Source of the DNA: an uncultured Desulfobulbaceae bacterium | Lineage (GTDB): Bacteria; Desulfobacterota; Desulfobulbia; Desulfobulbales; BM004 | Reading direction: 5' to 3' | Assembly (NCBI GenBank): GCA_945787325.1 | Contig: CALZHP010000025.1 | Span: 1-35,320 of the forward strand | Length of the DNA stretch: 35,320 bases | Shown here: positions 440 through 11,953 of the stretch, in pieces | How the letters are laid out: every line of letters begins with the position of its first letter | How positions within the stretch are numbered: position 1 is the first letter of the stretch | Position numbers and translations under genes: made by a program | Notes under the pieces: generated by a model | Seen by the model: the letters and a program-made list of their open reading frames with translations, nothing else | Told to the model about the DNA's origin: nothing | Databases searched by the model: none

Positions 440-2986
440 CTAGAGCATATTCTCCGGATCAACGTCCAATATAACCTTTACCTTTTTGGATAGCGGCGAA
501 TTTGAAAATTTGTGTAAGAGCCCGGCTGCTGTGCTGTGCAATGCTTCGATATCCTGACCACGCAATAAAAGCTGCCATCGGTACTTGTTCCTTAACCGCT
601 CGATAGGCGCTGAAACAGGCCCGAGCATATCTGTTTTCTGCCCTGTTTTTCCACCCGCACTCCTGTTAATCCTGGCAAGTTCGGTAGCTGCCGATCGTAC
701 AGCACTTTCCACCTCACCTTCTACGCGTATATTTATAAGCCTGGAGTATGGTGGGAAACCGAGAGATTTTCTGAGCTTTATCTCACTCTCAAACAATTCC
801 TTGTACATGTGTTCCCTGGCAAGCGCGATGCTGTAGTGATCGGGCTGGTGTGTCTGGATTATAACCCTGCCAGCCTTCTCTCCTCGCCCTGCCCTGCCCG
901 TCACCTGTGAAACCAGCTGGAACGTCCTTTCACCGGCCCTGAAATCAGGCATGCCAAGTCCCGCGTCTGCCCAGATGACACCGACCAGGGTTACATTGGG
1001 GAAATGATGCCCTTTTGCAACCATCTGGGTCCCGAGAAGGATGTCTATTTCACCGTTTCGCATTGAGCTAAGGGTCTTCATAAAATGTTTACGCGTGCTG
1101 CTGGTGTCGCGGTCCAAACGTGCGATACGGGCTTCGGGAAATAAATTTGTAAGTTCATGTTCGATACGTTCAGTTCCAAACCCAACCCCGATCATATTGT
1201 TTGAACGACAATGCGGGCAGACAATATCGCTTCTGGATGAATATCCGCAGTAATGACATCGAAGTTCATTCTTGCCTTTATGCAGTGTCAGGGAGATGTG
1301 ACATTGATCACACTGAACTGTATTACCGCAATCCTGACATACCATGCAGTTTGCAAATCCGCGCCGGTTAAGAAAAATTATGCTCTGTTCCTTATTCTGT
1401 ATGTTTTCCCTGAGCGCCTGAAAAAGTCTTCCTGAAATAAGAGGAGGTTTTCCTGAAACTGTTTTGACTCCTCTCAGATCAACTATCTCAATGTCCGGCA
1501 GCGGGCGGTTTTCAATACGATTCTCAAGCTTAACAAGATTGTATTTACCGTTTACTGCATGATGATAGGACGTTATCGAAGGAGTTGCCGAACCTAAGAT
1601 GACCGTTGCGTTTTCCATGCTTGCTCTCAGCACGGCAAGATCACGTGCCTGGTAAAGCAGCCCTTCTTCCTGCTTATATGCCCCGTCATGTTCCTCGTCC
1701 ACAACAATCAGGCCCGGGTTTTTCAATGGGGCGAACACGGCCGAGCGTGCGCCAATTACAATAGACGCCTCACCGCGCAGGATTCTTTTCCATTGATCAT
1801 AGCGTTCTCCGGATGACAAACCACTATGTTGCAGGGCAACCCTGTCCCCGAAACGTGAATAAAAATGCCCTTCAAGCTGGGTTGCCAGAGCAATCTCGGG
1901 AACAAGTACAAGAACACTACGATTCTGATCAACAGCGGCTTCAGCAGCCCGTAAGTATACTTCCGTTTTACCACTGCCGGTAACACCATGAAGCATAAAT
2001 GATGTGAATTTGCCGCTCTCTATGGCCGGAACTATTTCTTTAAGAACATTATCCTGTTCAGGAGTCAGCTTTTCGGGTTTGGGTTGATACGGCGGACATG
2101 TTCCAAAAGGATCCCTGTAGACTTGTTTTTCTTCAATAACTACAAGGCCCTTTTGAGCAAGGTCTTTCAGAGCTTTTCGGGCGCCCGTGTACTCCCGTGC
2201 AATCTCTTTTTGAGGAATGAACACCTGCTGCTCATCGTCCCTTTCATCAATAAGCCTTTTCAAAAGATCTAACGTTTTCGCTTCCGAGATTTTTAAAGTA
2301 CGTTTTCCGCTTGAAATATTCTCCAGTTCGGAGAGAATACTATCGTAATTACCGGAAAGTGCCGTGCATACTTCATATCTGGACTTGACTGAATCTTCAG
2401 ACATTTCATTTTGAATTGTAAGCCATTTATTGTCCTGCCAATTCTGTAGTAACTTTCTATTCCTGCCGTTTCGCCAGAGCCGGCGTGTGGCAGCGTGTGT
2501 GATCTCCCCTCTTTCCAGTAAATTTTCAAGCCAGGCATTATCAACTTGTTCTTCCCTTTCGGCAACATCAGCCAGGTGTTCCCTGCCCTCTTCTCTGAGC
2601 ACTATTCGCCTGCAGCTTTGCGGTGTAAGTCCTCCCGGCAGAGCACTTCTGATGACTTCGCCGATCGGGTAATGATAGTACTTTGATATCCATCTGTAGT
2701 ACGGAATGATTTCAGTAGGAAACAGGGGCTCCGGATCGAGGACATCAATAACTTTTCTTATGCGGTAATCTGAAGAGTCCGGAGCCGATGTAAAACCGAG
2801 AAGATAACCGGTCACATGTCGTCCTGAAAGAGGCACCAGAAGACGCATCCCCGCAACCGGGTCAATTGAGTTATCATCCGGAGGAGCATACGTAAGTGTA
2901 TGAAAAACAGGAGCTGCTACCGCAACTTCAAGATATGAGGATGGTTGCTTAGTCAATTCAATGTGTTCGGAACTTACCTGAGGCAA
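440..2986 (-). CDS. priA: Primosomal replication restart helicase PriA
   Basis: PriA is a 3'-to-5' superfamily 2 DNA helicase that recognises stalled forks and loads the replicative helicase for restart. The 848-residue product has the N-terminal 3'-DNA-binding domain (roughly 18-115), Walker A GVTGSGKT at 334-341, the DEEH box at 430-433, and SATPS at 466-470. The zinc-binding insertion has four Cys pairs (550/553, 559/562, 577/580, 590/593). Length is somewhat above the roughly 730 residues of the E. coli protein because of a longer region between the N-terminal domain and the helicase core. The chosen start is a TTG at 2984-2986; there is no good in-frame ATG before the conserved PVFHTLTY segment. 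The TTG sits in the loop of a short hairpin, so the true start is uncertain. It follows galU on the same strand. Confidence 0.95.
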   Translation of the reverse strand: MPQVSSEHIELTKQPSSYLEVAVAAPVFHTLTYAPPDDNSIDPVAGMRLLVPLSGRHVTGYLLGFTSAPDSSDYRIRKVIDVLDPEPLFPTEIIPYYRWISKYYHYPIGEVIRSALPGGLTPQSCRRIVLREEGREHLADVAEREEQVDNAWLENLLERGEITHAATRRLWRNGRNRKLLQNWQDNKWLTIQNEMSEDSVKSRYEVCTALSGNYDSILSELENISSGKRTLKISEAKTLDLLKRLIDERDDEQQVFIPQKEIAREYTGARKALKDLAQKGLVVIEEKQVYRDPFGTCPPYQPKPEKLTPEQDNVLKEIVPAIESGKFTSFMLHGVTGSGKTEVYLRAAEAAVDQNRSVLVLVPEIALATQLEGHFYSRFGDRVALQHSGLSSGERYDQWKRILRGEASIVIGARSAVFAPLKNPGLIVVDEEHDGAYKQEEGLLYQARDLAVLRASMENATVILGSATPSITSYHHAVNGKYNLVKLENRIENRPLPDIEIVDLRGVKTVSGKPPLISGRLFQALRENIQNKEQSIIFLNRRGFANCMVCQDCGNTVQCDQCHISLTLHKGKNELRCHYCGYSSRSDIVCPHCRSNNMIGVGFGTERIEHELTNLFPEARIARLDRDTSSTRKHFMKTLSSMRNGEIDILLGTQMVAKGHHFPNVTLVGVIWADAGLGMPDFRAGERTFQLVSQVTGRAGRGEKAGRVIIQTHQPDHYSIALAREHMYKELFESEIKLRKSLGFPPYSRLINIRVEGEVESAVRSAATELARINRSAGGKTGQKTDMLGPVSAPIERLRNKYRWQLLLRGQDIEALHSTAAGLLHKFSNSPLSKKVKVILDVDPENML

Positions 2987-7906: not shown

Positions 7907-7957
7907 TCTGATGAAGATCAATTGCATGGATTTTCAGAATGGGGTCAGTATCAAGTA

Positions 7958-9295
7958 ATGAATGATCTTACTGGACCAGACAAAAACGTTCCTCTTGCAG
8001 AACGCATGAGGCCCAGAAACATTGAAGATTTTGTCGGACAGGACGAACTTCTCGGCAAAGACAGGCTGCTGAGAAGGCTTATAGATCAGAAGAGTATTCC
8101 TTCCCTTCTTTTATGGGGGCCACCCGGCAGCGGAAAAACAACGCTGGCAAGGATACTCGCCCAATGTGCAGGGGCTAATTTTGTCTTTTTTTCTGCGGTG
8201 TTATCAGGTGTAAAAGAGATACGGCAGATAGTGGCTCAAGCTGAACTTCTTCACAAGGGTGACACACCTTCACCTACTATTCTCTTTGTTGACGAGATTC
8301 ACCGGTTTAATAAAAGTCAGCAGGATGCCTTTCTACCTCACGTAGAAAGCGGGCTGCTCACTTTAATCGGCGCCACAACCGAAAATCCTTCTTTCCATGT
8401 TATTGCCCCGCTCCTTTCACGCTGCAAGGTTCTGGTTTTGCAGCCCCTTACCGTCGAGTCTCTCTTAATAATTTTGCAGCATGCGTTACAAGATAAAAAC
8501 AATGGCCTTGGTAGTTTCAATATCCACGCCGAAGAAGATTCCCTCGAACATATCTGCAGAATGGCAGACGGTGATGCCAGACGGGCCTTGAATCTGCTTG
8601 AAATATGTGCATCTTTGATTATTTCCGAGGATAAAGCAGGTGAAGACCAGCCTGTCATTACACTTGAACTTGTCGAAGAGGCAAGCCAGCGCAGCACATA
8701 CAGATATGATGCTGACGGCGAGGAACATTATAACCTTATCTCTGCTCTTCATAAAAGCATGCGCGACAGTGATCCAGACGGGTCAATCTACTGGCTTGCC
8801 AGAATGCTTGCTGCCGGTGAAGAACCACTCTATGTTGCCAGAAGGCTCATCAGATTTGCTTCAGAAGATATCGGCAACGCAGACCCTCAGGCATTAGGCG
8901 TTGCCATTAACTGCCGGGATGCTTATCATACATTGGGATCCCCTGAGGGGGAGCTTGCTCTTGTTCAGGCAGTTACTTACCTGGCAACGGCACCAAAAAG
9001 TAACGCAGTATATGCAGCATATAAAGCGGTGCAGTCGGACATCAAAAATACAGGAAGCCTGCTGGTTCCTCTTCATATCCGTAACGCCCCTACCCGTCTC
9101 ATGAAAGATCTTGGCTATGGGAAGAATTACAAATATGCCCACGACAATGATTATGGTCTAGTTGAGCAGGAACATCTGCCGGAAGAGCTTAAAGGCAAAA
9201 CATATTATCACCCTACAAATAGAGGATATGAAGCTTTAGTTAAAGAAAGGCTTACCAAGTGGCGACAGATTCTTTCAGAAAGAAAAAAACAATAA
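7958..9295 (+). CDS. rarA: Replication-associated recombination ATPase RarA (MgsA)
   Basis: AAA+ ATPase of the clamp-loader-related RarA/MgsA/WRNIP1 family, acting at stalled or gapped replication forks. Counting from the ATG at 7958 (445 residues): the PLAERMRP lead-in, Walker A GPPGSGKT at 54-61, Walker B FVDEIHRFN around 109-118, sensor 1 GATTENPSF at 138-146, then the RarA C-terminal tetramerisation region containing YLARML-type helices and the conserved Lys-Asp-Leu-Gly-Tyr-Gly ending. An upstream in-frame TTG at 7922 would add 12 residues, but the family normally begins only a few residues before PLAERMRP. It lies 51 bases after hrpA and 35 bases before the selenoprotein gene. Confidence 0.93.
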   Translation: MNDLTGPDKNVPLAERMRPRNIEDFVGQDELLGKDRLLRRLIDQKSIPSLLLWGPPGSGKTTLARILAQCAGANFVFFSAVLSGVKEIRQIVAQAELLHKGDTPSPTILFVDEIHRFNKSQQDAFLPHVESGLLTLIGATTENPSFHVIAPLLSRCKVLVLQPLTVESLLIILQHALQDKNNGLGSFNIHAEEDSLEHICRMADGDARRALNLLEICASLIISEDKAGEDQPVITLELVEEASQRSTYRYDADGEEHYNLISALHKSMRDSDPDGSIYWLARMLAAGEEPLYVARRLIRFASEDIGNADPQALGVAINCRDAYHTLGSPEGELALVQAVTYLATAPKSNAVYAAYKAVQSDIKNTGSLLVPLHIRNAPTRLMKDLGYGKNYKYAHDNDYGLVEQEHLPEELKGKTYYHPTNRGYEALVKERLTKWRQILSERKKQ

Positions 9296-9330
9296 CCTTT
9301 AATACCCCTGAACTATGCAGGAGCTCTCAA

Positions 9331-10944
9331 ATGAAATTCTTACTTAAAATTACGTTGCTGACTGTTAGCATTATTATGGTTTATGGCGACCAGGTTAATG
9401 TTACAGCAAACGTGATTTCTTCTGATAATGAGTTTATGATTTTCTATTCCAATGATGTTCGCGGTGAAATTGAGCCCTGCGGCTGAAAAGCCAGACAGTT
9501 GGGCGGTCTGTCCAAAAAAGCTGAACAAATCAAATCTATCTTCGAAAAAAATAATAAGCCCTTCCTGCTTATAGATGCCGGAAGCCTTCTTTTTAAGGGA
9601 GAGCAATTAAATTCTGCTCTTGCCGAACAGGACAAAGTTACAGCCGAAGGCATTGTTAGCTCTTACAATACAATAGGATATGATGCTGTCAATATTGCCC
9701 TTTTTGATCTGGCAGCTGGTCTCGATTTTTTTAAGGATATTGAAAAACAATCAAAGTTCTCCTGGCTGTCAGCAAACCTGGTAAACAAAACAAACAATAA
9801 ACCTATATTTAAAACTTCAATTATAAAAAAAGTCGGAAGTATTGATATTGGTATAATAGGGCTAACTGCAATCAGTAATTCCAGACAGGTGAAAAATAAG
9901 TTGGCAGACGAAAATGCTACGATACTTGAATGGTATGAAGTACTTGATCCACTGGTTACAGAAATAGATAATAAAAGTGACATGGTTGTTTTGCTTTCAA
10001 ATTATAACTTCAATATCAACAGGAAAATTGCAAACCGATTCAAATCTATCAATATCATCATTCAATCCGGAACAACCGCATCAAATAAAGCGCCCGAAAA
10101 GGTTGAAAACACACTCATTTTTCAGACTGATAAGCAGGGCAAAATTTTGGGGCTGATGAATGTTAACTGGTCTGATTCGGGAACATGGGGCTCGGATAAT
10201 ACTGCTAAACAATTAAAAAACAAAAAAAGCGAGATGGATGGAATCAATGGCAGACTGTCACGATTCAGAGCCCGCTATTCTGAAGAAGAGTTAAAACAAC
10301 AGCGGGGATATATAAACCTGCAGGAATACAAGGTTAAGCTTTCAAAAAACATCAATGAACTTGAAACGGCTTTAAATCACCAAATAGCTGCTGGATCAAT
10401 TCCATCGACTTATTCCAACAGATTCATTGCCCTGGAAGTTTTCATGCCTGATGATCCAGAGGTACTGAAGATTGTAGAAGAAACTAAAGATAAGGTTTAC
10501 CAGATTGGCAAAAGAGCATCTAAGAAAGGAAATACACATTCAAGTGGCGATGAAGATTCTCAGAAATTGCTGGTCGGGTGGCAATCATGTGAGAGATGCC
10601 ATTCAAGCCACACTAAATTCTGGGAAAATACCAGGCACGCAAAAGCTTACAACACACTCGTAAGAAAAAAGCAGAATTATAATTTGAAGTGTCTACCGTG
10701 CCATGTAACTTACGACCGTGCTCAATCACCGTCATTGACTCTTACATTAGAGCCGGAGTTCCAGCTTGTTGGATGTGAAGCATGCCATGGACCTGGCAAT
10801 AAACATATAATAAATCCGGAAGAAAATAGAATGACCACGCTTCCGCCAGAACATATTTGTGTTCGGTGTCATACATCGGAAAGGGATGATTCTTTTCTTT
10901 ATCAGAACGATTTAAAACTCATCGCCTGTCCGGAAGAAGGATAA
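9331..10944 (+). CDS. Probable selenoprotein: metallophosphatase-like / tetraheme cytochrome c
   Basis: A single reading frame of 537 residues if the TGA at 9484-9486 is read as selenocysteine (residue 52). The ATG at 9331 has an AGGAG ribosome-binding site at 9319-9323, seven bases upstream, and a hydrophobic signal peptide (about 3-18), so the protein should be exported. Next comes a metallophosphatase (UshA-like) domain, from FMIFYSNDVRGEIEPCG through about residue 290. It is degenerate: the usual His of the NDxHG motif is Arg and there is no GNHE motif. The C-terminal part holds four haem c sites: CERCH 420-424, CLPCH 454-458, CEACH 482-486 and CVRCH 510-514. Related cytochromes, as I recall them, carry Cys-Gly-Cys followed by a QLGGL-type segment; here the second Cys is TGA. 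The substrate is unknown. Alternatives are a nonsense mutation or a sequencing error. Confidence 0.82.
9484..9515 (+). promoter_or_regulatory. Candidate bacterial SECIS element after in-frame TGA
   Basis: After TGA 9484-9486, bases 9499-9504 (UUGGGC) pair with 9510-9515 (GUCCAA): six pairs, one of them G-U, closed by the five-base loop GGUCU. The first G of the loop is base 19 after the TGA, as in the E. coli fdhF SECIS as I remember it, and the codons GGT CTG occupy the same places. Bacterial SelB binds such a hairpin just 3' of the UGA to insert selenocysteine. Competing foldings (CAGAC/GUCUG or GACAG/CUGUC with nine-base loops) also exist in this stretch. Confidence 0.7.
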
Positions 10945-11029: not shown

Positions 11030-11953
11030 CTAACAGCCGAATGCGTCCTGCAATGGCGGTATGGTTTGTTTTTTACGGCTCATCATGCCGTCAACCCATA
11101 CAGTTGGACCATCAAGCTTAACATTGTATGCTTTCTCAACGTAAGAATTATCATCACTGACTACCATGAGATCCGTTCCTTCTTTCATAATATCCGTAAG
11201 CATAAGAAGGACTGTGTGTCGGCCACCTTCTGTTTTAACTTCTCTAAGTGCACTAAGAAGATCATCACGGACATCTTCAACAAGCGAAAGATCAACCAGC
11301 TCAAGCTGCCCGCAGCCGACTTTATTGCCTTTCATGTCAAAATCTTTGTAGTCACGGAAAATAAGATCTTTTGCAGGCACACCGGCCACAGCTGACTTGG
11401 CTTTAAACATTTCCATTGCCAGAGCTTCCATATCAGAAATGCCGGCAATCTTTGCCAAAGCATCACATGCTTCCTTGTCGCTATCTGTTGTGGTAGGAGA
11501 CTTGAAAAGTACTGTATCACTCAGTATAGAAGCCAACATGATACCTGCTATATTTGCAGGTATTTCAATATTGTTCATATCATAAAGCTGTTTCAGAACA
11601 GTTCCGGTGCAACCGACTGGCATCGCACAGAAGAAAATTGGATTGTTGGTTGTGATATCTCCAATTTTATGGTGATCAACGATTTCAATTATTTCTGCGT
11701 CACCCAGATTATCAGGTGCCTGGGCAATATCACTGTGATCTACAAGGATCAGCTTTTTACCTGCACCATCGGTCAGGGTTTCAGGGACGGAGAAACCGAA
11801 CTTATCCAGCACCATCTTTGCTTCAGGGTTTATCTCACCCTGTACTGCAGCCACAGCATCAACGCCCATAGATTTTTTAAGTTCAGCATATGCTATCGCA
11901 GATGCTACAGAATCGGTATCAGGACTTTTGTGTCCAACAACGTACACTGACAT
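11030..11953 (-). CDS. ppaC: Manganese-dependent inorganic pyrophosphatase (DHH family)
   Basis: Family II soluble pyrophosphatase, hydrolysing pyrophosphate to two phosphates with Mn2+ or Co2+. The 307 residues fit the CBS-free form of the family. Metal ligands visible are His8, Asp12 and Asp14 in GHKSPDTDS, Asp72 in VDHSD, and the DHH signature at 93-95 in IVDHHK. The C-terminal substrate-binding motif SRKKQTIPPL is present near the end. The ATG at 11951-11953 is preceded on the minus strand by a strong ribosome-binding site (AGGAGG). It is a single-gene unit: convergent with the cytochrome gene and divergent from the next gene. It draws off pyrophosphate made by reactions such as that of GalU. 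Confidence 0.96.
   Translation of the reverse strand: MSVYVVGHKSPDTDSVASAIAYAELKKSMGVDAVAAVQGEINPEAKMVLDKFGFSVPETLTDGAGKKLILVDHSDIAQAPDNLGDAEIIEIVDHHKIGDITTNNPIFFCAMPVGCTGTVLKQLYDMNNIEIPANIAGIMLASILSDTVLFKSPTTTDSDKEACDALAKIAGISDMEALAMEMFKAKSAVAGVPAKDLIFRDYKDFDMKGNKVGCGQLELVDLSLVEDVRDDLLSALREVKTEGGRHTVLLMLTDIMKEGTDLMVVSDDNSYVEKAYNVKLDGPTVWVDGMMSRKKQTIPPLQDAFGC

Follow-up and report, generated by a model that had tools for sequence, protein, structure and literature searches.

A probable selenocysteine at codon 52 of a UshA-like (PCGU) family protein with a tetrahaem C-terminal domain from an uncultured Desulfobulbaceae bacterium

The gene at positions 9331 to 10944 (+) of the window, the 35,320 nt stretch of an uncultured Desulfobulbaceae genome (GenBank assembly GCA_945787325.1, contig CALZHP010000025.1) that was analysed here, encodes a protein that belongs to an established selenoprotein family, UshA-like (PCGU), and has selenocysteine (Sec) at codon 52, a reading to which we assign a probability of about 95 %. 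The translated product matches the NCBIfam family NF041198 (UshA_like_PCGU, 'UshA-like (seleno)protein') with 597.5 bits, the curated cut-off being 275, and the match is essentially full length, covering residues 25–525 of the protein and positions 14–519 of the 519 in the profile. Both the PCGU motif (PCGC in some members) and a tetrahaem tail lie inside this profile, as they do in this protein, which differs in no significant respect from the family and, at 31–46 % identity to the aligned members, is an ordinary one. Though the first-pass annotation presented the gene as an unannotated selenoprotein, the family is already defined by NF041198 and by published tables, where UshA-like proteins with the motif CxU are found in the prokaryotic selenoproteome reviews of 2026 (PMC13188914) and 2022 (PMC9312934) and, as 76 COG0737 UshA-like CxU sequences, in the 2008 Global Ocean Sampling survey (PMC2398784). 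The latter share both the COG and the CxU motif with the protein described here, and the part of the survey that deals with them gives neither a domain analysis nor any mention of a haem tail (PMC2398784). A second NCBIfam family, NF049981 (UshA-like (seleno)protein family 2), has the UshA-like fold and a selenoprotein character in common with this protein but scores only 35 bits where its cut-off demands 140, and its listed motif is CxxU (PMC13188914). The sole match in PHROGs is to a family of unknown function. Hence, the identification as a selenoprotein is correct and adds one member, but the selenoprotein family itself is not new.

The reading frame contains a single TGA (9484–9486, codon 52), ends with TAA and, when TGA is read as U, yields a product of 537 aa in which U52 lies in the context SNDVRGEIEPCGUKARQLGGLSKKA. 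The Pro-Cys-Gly-Sec motif (CCC TGC GGC TGA, residues 49–52) occupies 9475–9486 (+). An AGGAG Shine-Dalgarno sequence (9319–9323, +) is found 7 nt 5′ of the ATG at 9331, and the first 30 or so residues (9331–9420, +; the end is approximate) form a putative hydrophobic export signal, which an AlphaFold model represents as a helix (residues 2–18) followed by a low-confidence link (residues 21–28). Together with strong conservation of the protein on either side of the TGA, these features bear out what had been noted from the raw sequence, namely one TGA interrupting an otherwise intact coding region that is preceded by a ribosome-binding site and a signal peptide. The further expectation that a standard gene caller would begin past the TGA and drop the export signal also held, as the mechanically made ORF list starts this gene at the TTG at 9499, 3′ of the TGA, and the leader is lost.

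The gene is flanked upstream by a RarA-like ATPase gene (7922–9295) and on the other side by a convergent Mn-dependent pyrophosphatase-like gene (11030–11953), both named from the sequence by eye. The former is kept in 17 of 21 loci and the latter in 15 of 21, a long-kept synteny with no obvious functional link. These are housekeeping genes and uninformative, and the neighbourhood points to no pathway.

Because the assembly that contains the window is a draft (2.78 Mb in 144 contigs, 90 % complete with 3.36 % contamination) and some homologues have TGC (Cys) at position 52, the TGA could in principle be a sequencing error for TGC or TGT, or a nonsense mutation that has left a pseudogene read from the TTG at 9499. 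This is decisively contradicted by 39 further homologues, each in an assembly other than this one, in which TGA recurs at the identical codon, and the protein-level conservation on both sides of the TGA and the preservation of a downstream hairpin in the Sec genes, less so in the Cys genes, also speak against it. Error and pseudogene were rejected on the recurrence of the TGA and are considered exceedingly improbable. When codon 52 was read through in 48 family genes, including that of the window, it was TGA in 40 and TGC in eight; a conserved in-frame TGA with Cys in some homologues is what is expected of a bacterial selenoprotein. In an alignment of 35 sequences P49, C50, G51, residue 52 (as Sec or Cys), G58, G59 and L60 were invariant. 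Such invariance, with TGA recurring at exactly this codon, is far from what chance would give. The C-x-U pair predicted earlier (C-x-C in the Cys forms) and the proposed exchange of Cys for Sec in an exported redox-type protein are supported; the Cys that was to be looked for at position 52 is present in the eight fetched homologues with TGC.

A profile search of 116 genomes found a match in 115, of which 101 were above the NF041198 cut-off, and nearly all of the full-length matches among those listed contain exactly one TGA. A sample taken across the phylum again had mostly one TGA per match. Searching the genome contigs with a single sequence found no relatives, while searching them with an alignment recovered 39 loci that are further removed. 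This sample is biased toward Cys forms, as the search pattern demanded PCGC; it includes PCGC proteins of Candidatus Electronema, Polyangium, Archangium and Bacteriovoracaceae. The eight Cys (PCGC) forms among the family genes (L051–L058) are from assemblies G081, G066, G028, G093, G058, G091, G037 and G045, and in some assemblies (e.g. G066, G081 and G093) Sec and Cys copies occur together. Such pairs may reflect a functional division or a selenium-independent backup.

A SECIS-like hairpin (UUGGGC-GGUCU-GUCCAA, 9499–9515, +) was found by folding to start 12 nt after the UGA, and its GGUCU loop (9505–9509, +) begins 18 nt after the UGA. A hairpin 3′ of the UGA whose loop opens with a G is the arrangement expected of a bacterial selenoprotein gene, and in Escherichia coli fdhF, too, a GGUCU loop follows the UGA after 18 nt (the fdhF sequence was verified against 5,388 E. 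coli genomes). Of the six hairpin pairs, at least five form in 39 of the 40 Sec genes compared to three of the eight Cys genes. At the aligned codons over the hairpin, the Sec genes have GGC for Gly58 in 28/28, GGT for Gly59 in 26/28 and CTG for Leu60 in 27/28, whereas the corresponding figures for the Cys genes are 4/7, 2/7 and 4/7, all of these counts coming from related sequences and not from independent events. Gly51, immediately 5′ of the TGA, is also nearly fixed (GGC in 26/28), and at most other invariant Gly or Leu sites the codons are mixed, e.g. nine GGC, eight GGG, six GGA and five GGT at Gly130. Judged from these codons, the synonymous positions over the hairpin are frozen in the Sec genes and drift in the Cys genes. 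There is little covariation, since the element is almost invariant; only one of the six pairs has changed on both sides, a level that 80 of 500 shuffles equal. Some of the folded stretches also contained a small hairpin at the UGA itself. An Rfam search of the window gave no match.

The selenium machinery, for which a search had been advised, is present in full in the same genome, as is expected where UGA is decoded as Sec. It includes selA (614 bits), a full-length selB (373.5 bits), a tRNA-Sec gene (75.3 bits; identified by ARAGORN as tRNA-SeC with anticodon tca) and selD (333.5 bits). The selD gene, at 1402–2500 (+) of locus L018 on contig C2, has its own in-frame TGA, in RTCGUAAKIGP, and is a second case of recoding in this genome; that SelD may itself be a selenoprotein is known. 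With the selenium genes present, Cys at position 52 in homologues and TGA recurring in other assemblies, none of the refutations put forward in the first-pass annotation holds. A second, partial selB (446 aa, truncated where the contig stops) lies beside an hflX gene on contig C113 (L003, 1380–4212), and the full-length selB adjoins another hflX on contig C37 (L001/L092), the two hflX being 80 % identical. The simplest explanation for having this selB-hflX pair twice is a contaminating or second-strain contig in the draft assembly.

The first-pass annotation called the product a multihaem cytochrome. This description fits the C-terminal 130 or so residues, which are a cytochrome c554-like tetrahaem domain, but residues ~30–280 have the UshA/5′-nucleotidase fold. 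The four CXXCH motifs that had been seen downstream of the TGA are indeed there, starting at residues 420, 454, 482 and 510, and were assigned from the sequence and the alignment as haem site 1 (CERCH, residues 420–424, 10588–10602), site 2 (CLPCH, 454–458, 10690–10704), site 3 (CEACH, 482–486, 10774–10788) and site 4 (CVRCH, 510–514, 10858–10872), all on the + strand. As expected of a c554-type tetrahaem domain, the four motifs are accompanied by a profile match, to Pfam Cytochrome_C554 (PF13435) at residues 419–487 (48.4 bits), and the C-terminal part also matches the profiles of PDB 1bvb and 6i5b. The CXXCH domain is like that of Nitrosomonas cytochrome c554, except that here it is the fusion partner of a Cys-Gly-Sec domain. 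One relative (L069, from assembly G040) is without haem motifs yet retains the CGU, and hence the role of the motif, whatever it may be, does not require the haems. More generally, shorter relatives of ~350–420 aa (L069 and others in G031, G047 and G054) have the UshA-like domain with TGA, apparently without the tetrahaem tail, the absence of haem motifs having been checked in L069. Going by these sequences, the cytochrome part looks modular.

The UshA/5′-nucleotidase-like (metallophosphatase) domain was placed at residues ~31–280 (9421–10170, +) using profile matches (PDB 3ivd, 2.4e-16; UshA, 5e-15), Foldseek and counts in alignment columns. The AlphaFold model has a mean pLDDT of 86, and Foldseek matches it to UshA and CD73 with E values of about 1e-17. 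Alignment with 3ivd pairs YTNDLHAHVEP with YSNDVRGEIEPCGU, which places the Sec motif right behind the position of the first metal-ligand pair; the identities of the ligands are presumed from UshA, and their positions were set via the 3ivd alignment. The fold is that of 5′-nucleotidase-type metallophosphatases such as UshA, CD73 and SoxB, and this clear homology, with the retention in 30 of the 35 sequences of Asp42, the counterpart of the first metal ligand in the alignment, would be consistent with Sec having been inserted into a domain that continues to act as a nucleotidase or phosphoesterase dependent on metal, the Cys-Gly-Sec serving only to regulate it or to bind metal. However, an active enzyme of the UshA or SoxB type needs its dimetal-binding residues intact, and the first Asp is the only one commonly kept. 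The histidine of the DxH is His in five of 35 and another residue in 30, the second Asp position is Asp in three and A, N, G or S in 32, the position of the catalytic Asn in the GNHE motif varies, with the Asn-His pair replaced, and Ser/Asn and Ala/Ser stand opposite the later histidines. On account of this ligand loss, a functional nucleotidase was judged quite unlikely. The protein also differs from UshA, CD73 and SoxB in having the tetrahaem domain instead of the usual C-terminal domain, and its score with the SoxB profile, at 66 bits, is far below the cut-off.

UGA codon 52 is thus very probably decoded as Sec by the SelA, SelB, SelC and SelD of this genome, directed by the hairpin with the GGUCU loop, and the protein would probably be located in the periplasm. 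There, in the loop that holds the first metal ligands in true nucleotidases, Cys50 and Sec52 could be joined reversibly as a selenenylsulfide, and the pair might catalyse a two-electron reaction of the thiol, sulfur or peroxide type, with the four haems exchanging electrons with the cytochrome pool of the periplasm. We think it somewhat probable that the mechanism is of this redox kind, with a Cys50-Sec52 selenenylsulfide that exchanges electrons with the haems. The AlphaFold model is of low confidence at the CGU loop (block pLDDT 61–68), and thus any contact of the Cys-Sec pair with the haems is putative. Given the distant kinship with SoxB, a sulfur compound is a reasonable first guess as substrate, but nothing more.

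Alternatively, rather than cycling through a selenenylsulfide, Cys50 and Sec52 may serve as a binding site for a metal or metalloid, or as the site at which oxyanions of selenium or tellurium are reduced, in exchange with the haems. Chemistry with metalloids would be compatible with a C-x-U pair that is joined to a multihaem tail, but pairs of the Cys-x-Cys or Cys-x-Sec kind more commonly act as thiol redox centres, and we regard this alternative as rather unlikely, though the same sources list another haem selenoprotein family, ExtKL (NF040886; NCBIfam and PMC13188914). For the family as a whole we are evenly poised on whether it consists of redox enzymes built on a dead metallophosphatase fold, in which a Cys-Gly-Sec redox centre sits in the loop that once bore the first metal ligands and a tetrahaem domain, present in most full-length members examined, provides a conduit for electrons.

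The recoded stop was read correctly from the raw sequence, and standard gene calling removes both the Cys-Gly-Sec motif and the export signal from such genes. The loss of the metal ligands suggests that the family should not carry a nucleotidase annotation. If the redox reading is true, these proteins would represent a distinct class of selenium-dependent periplasmic oxidoreductase, possibly acting on a sulfur compound given the relationship to SoxB.
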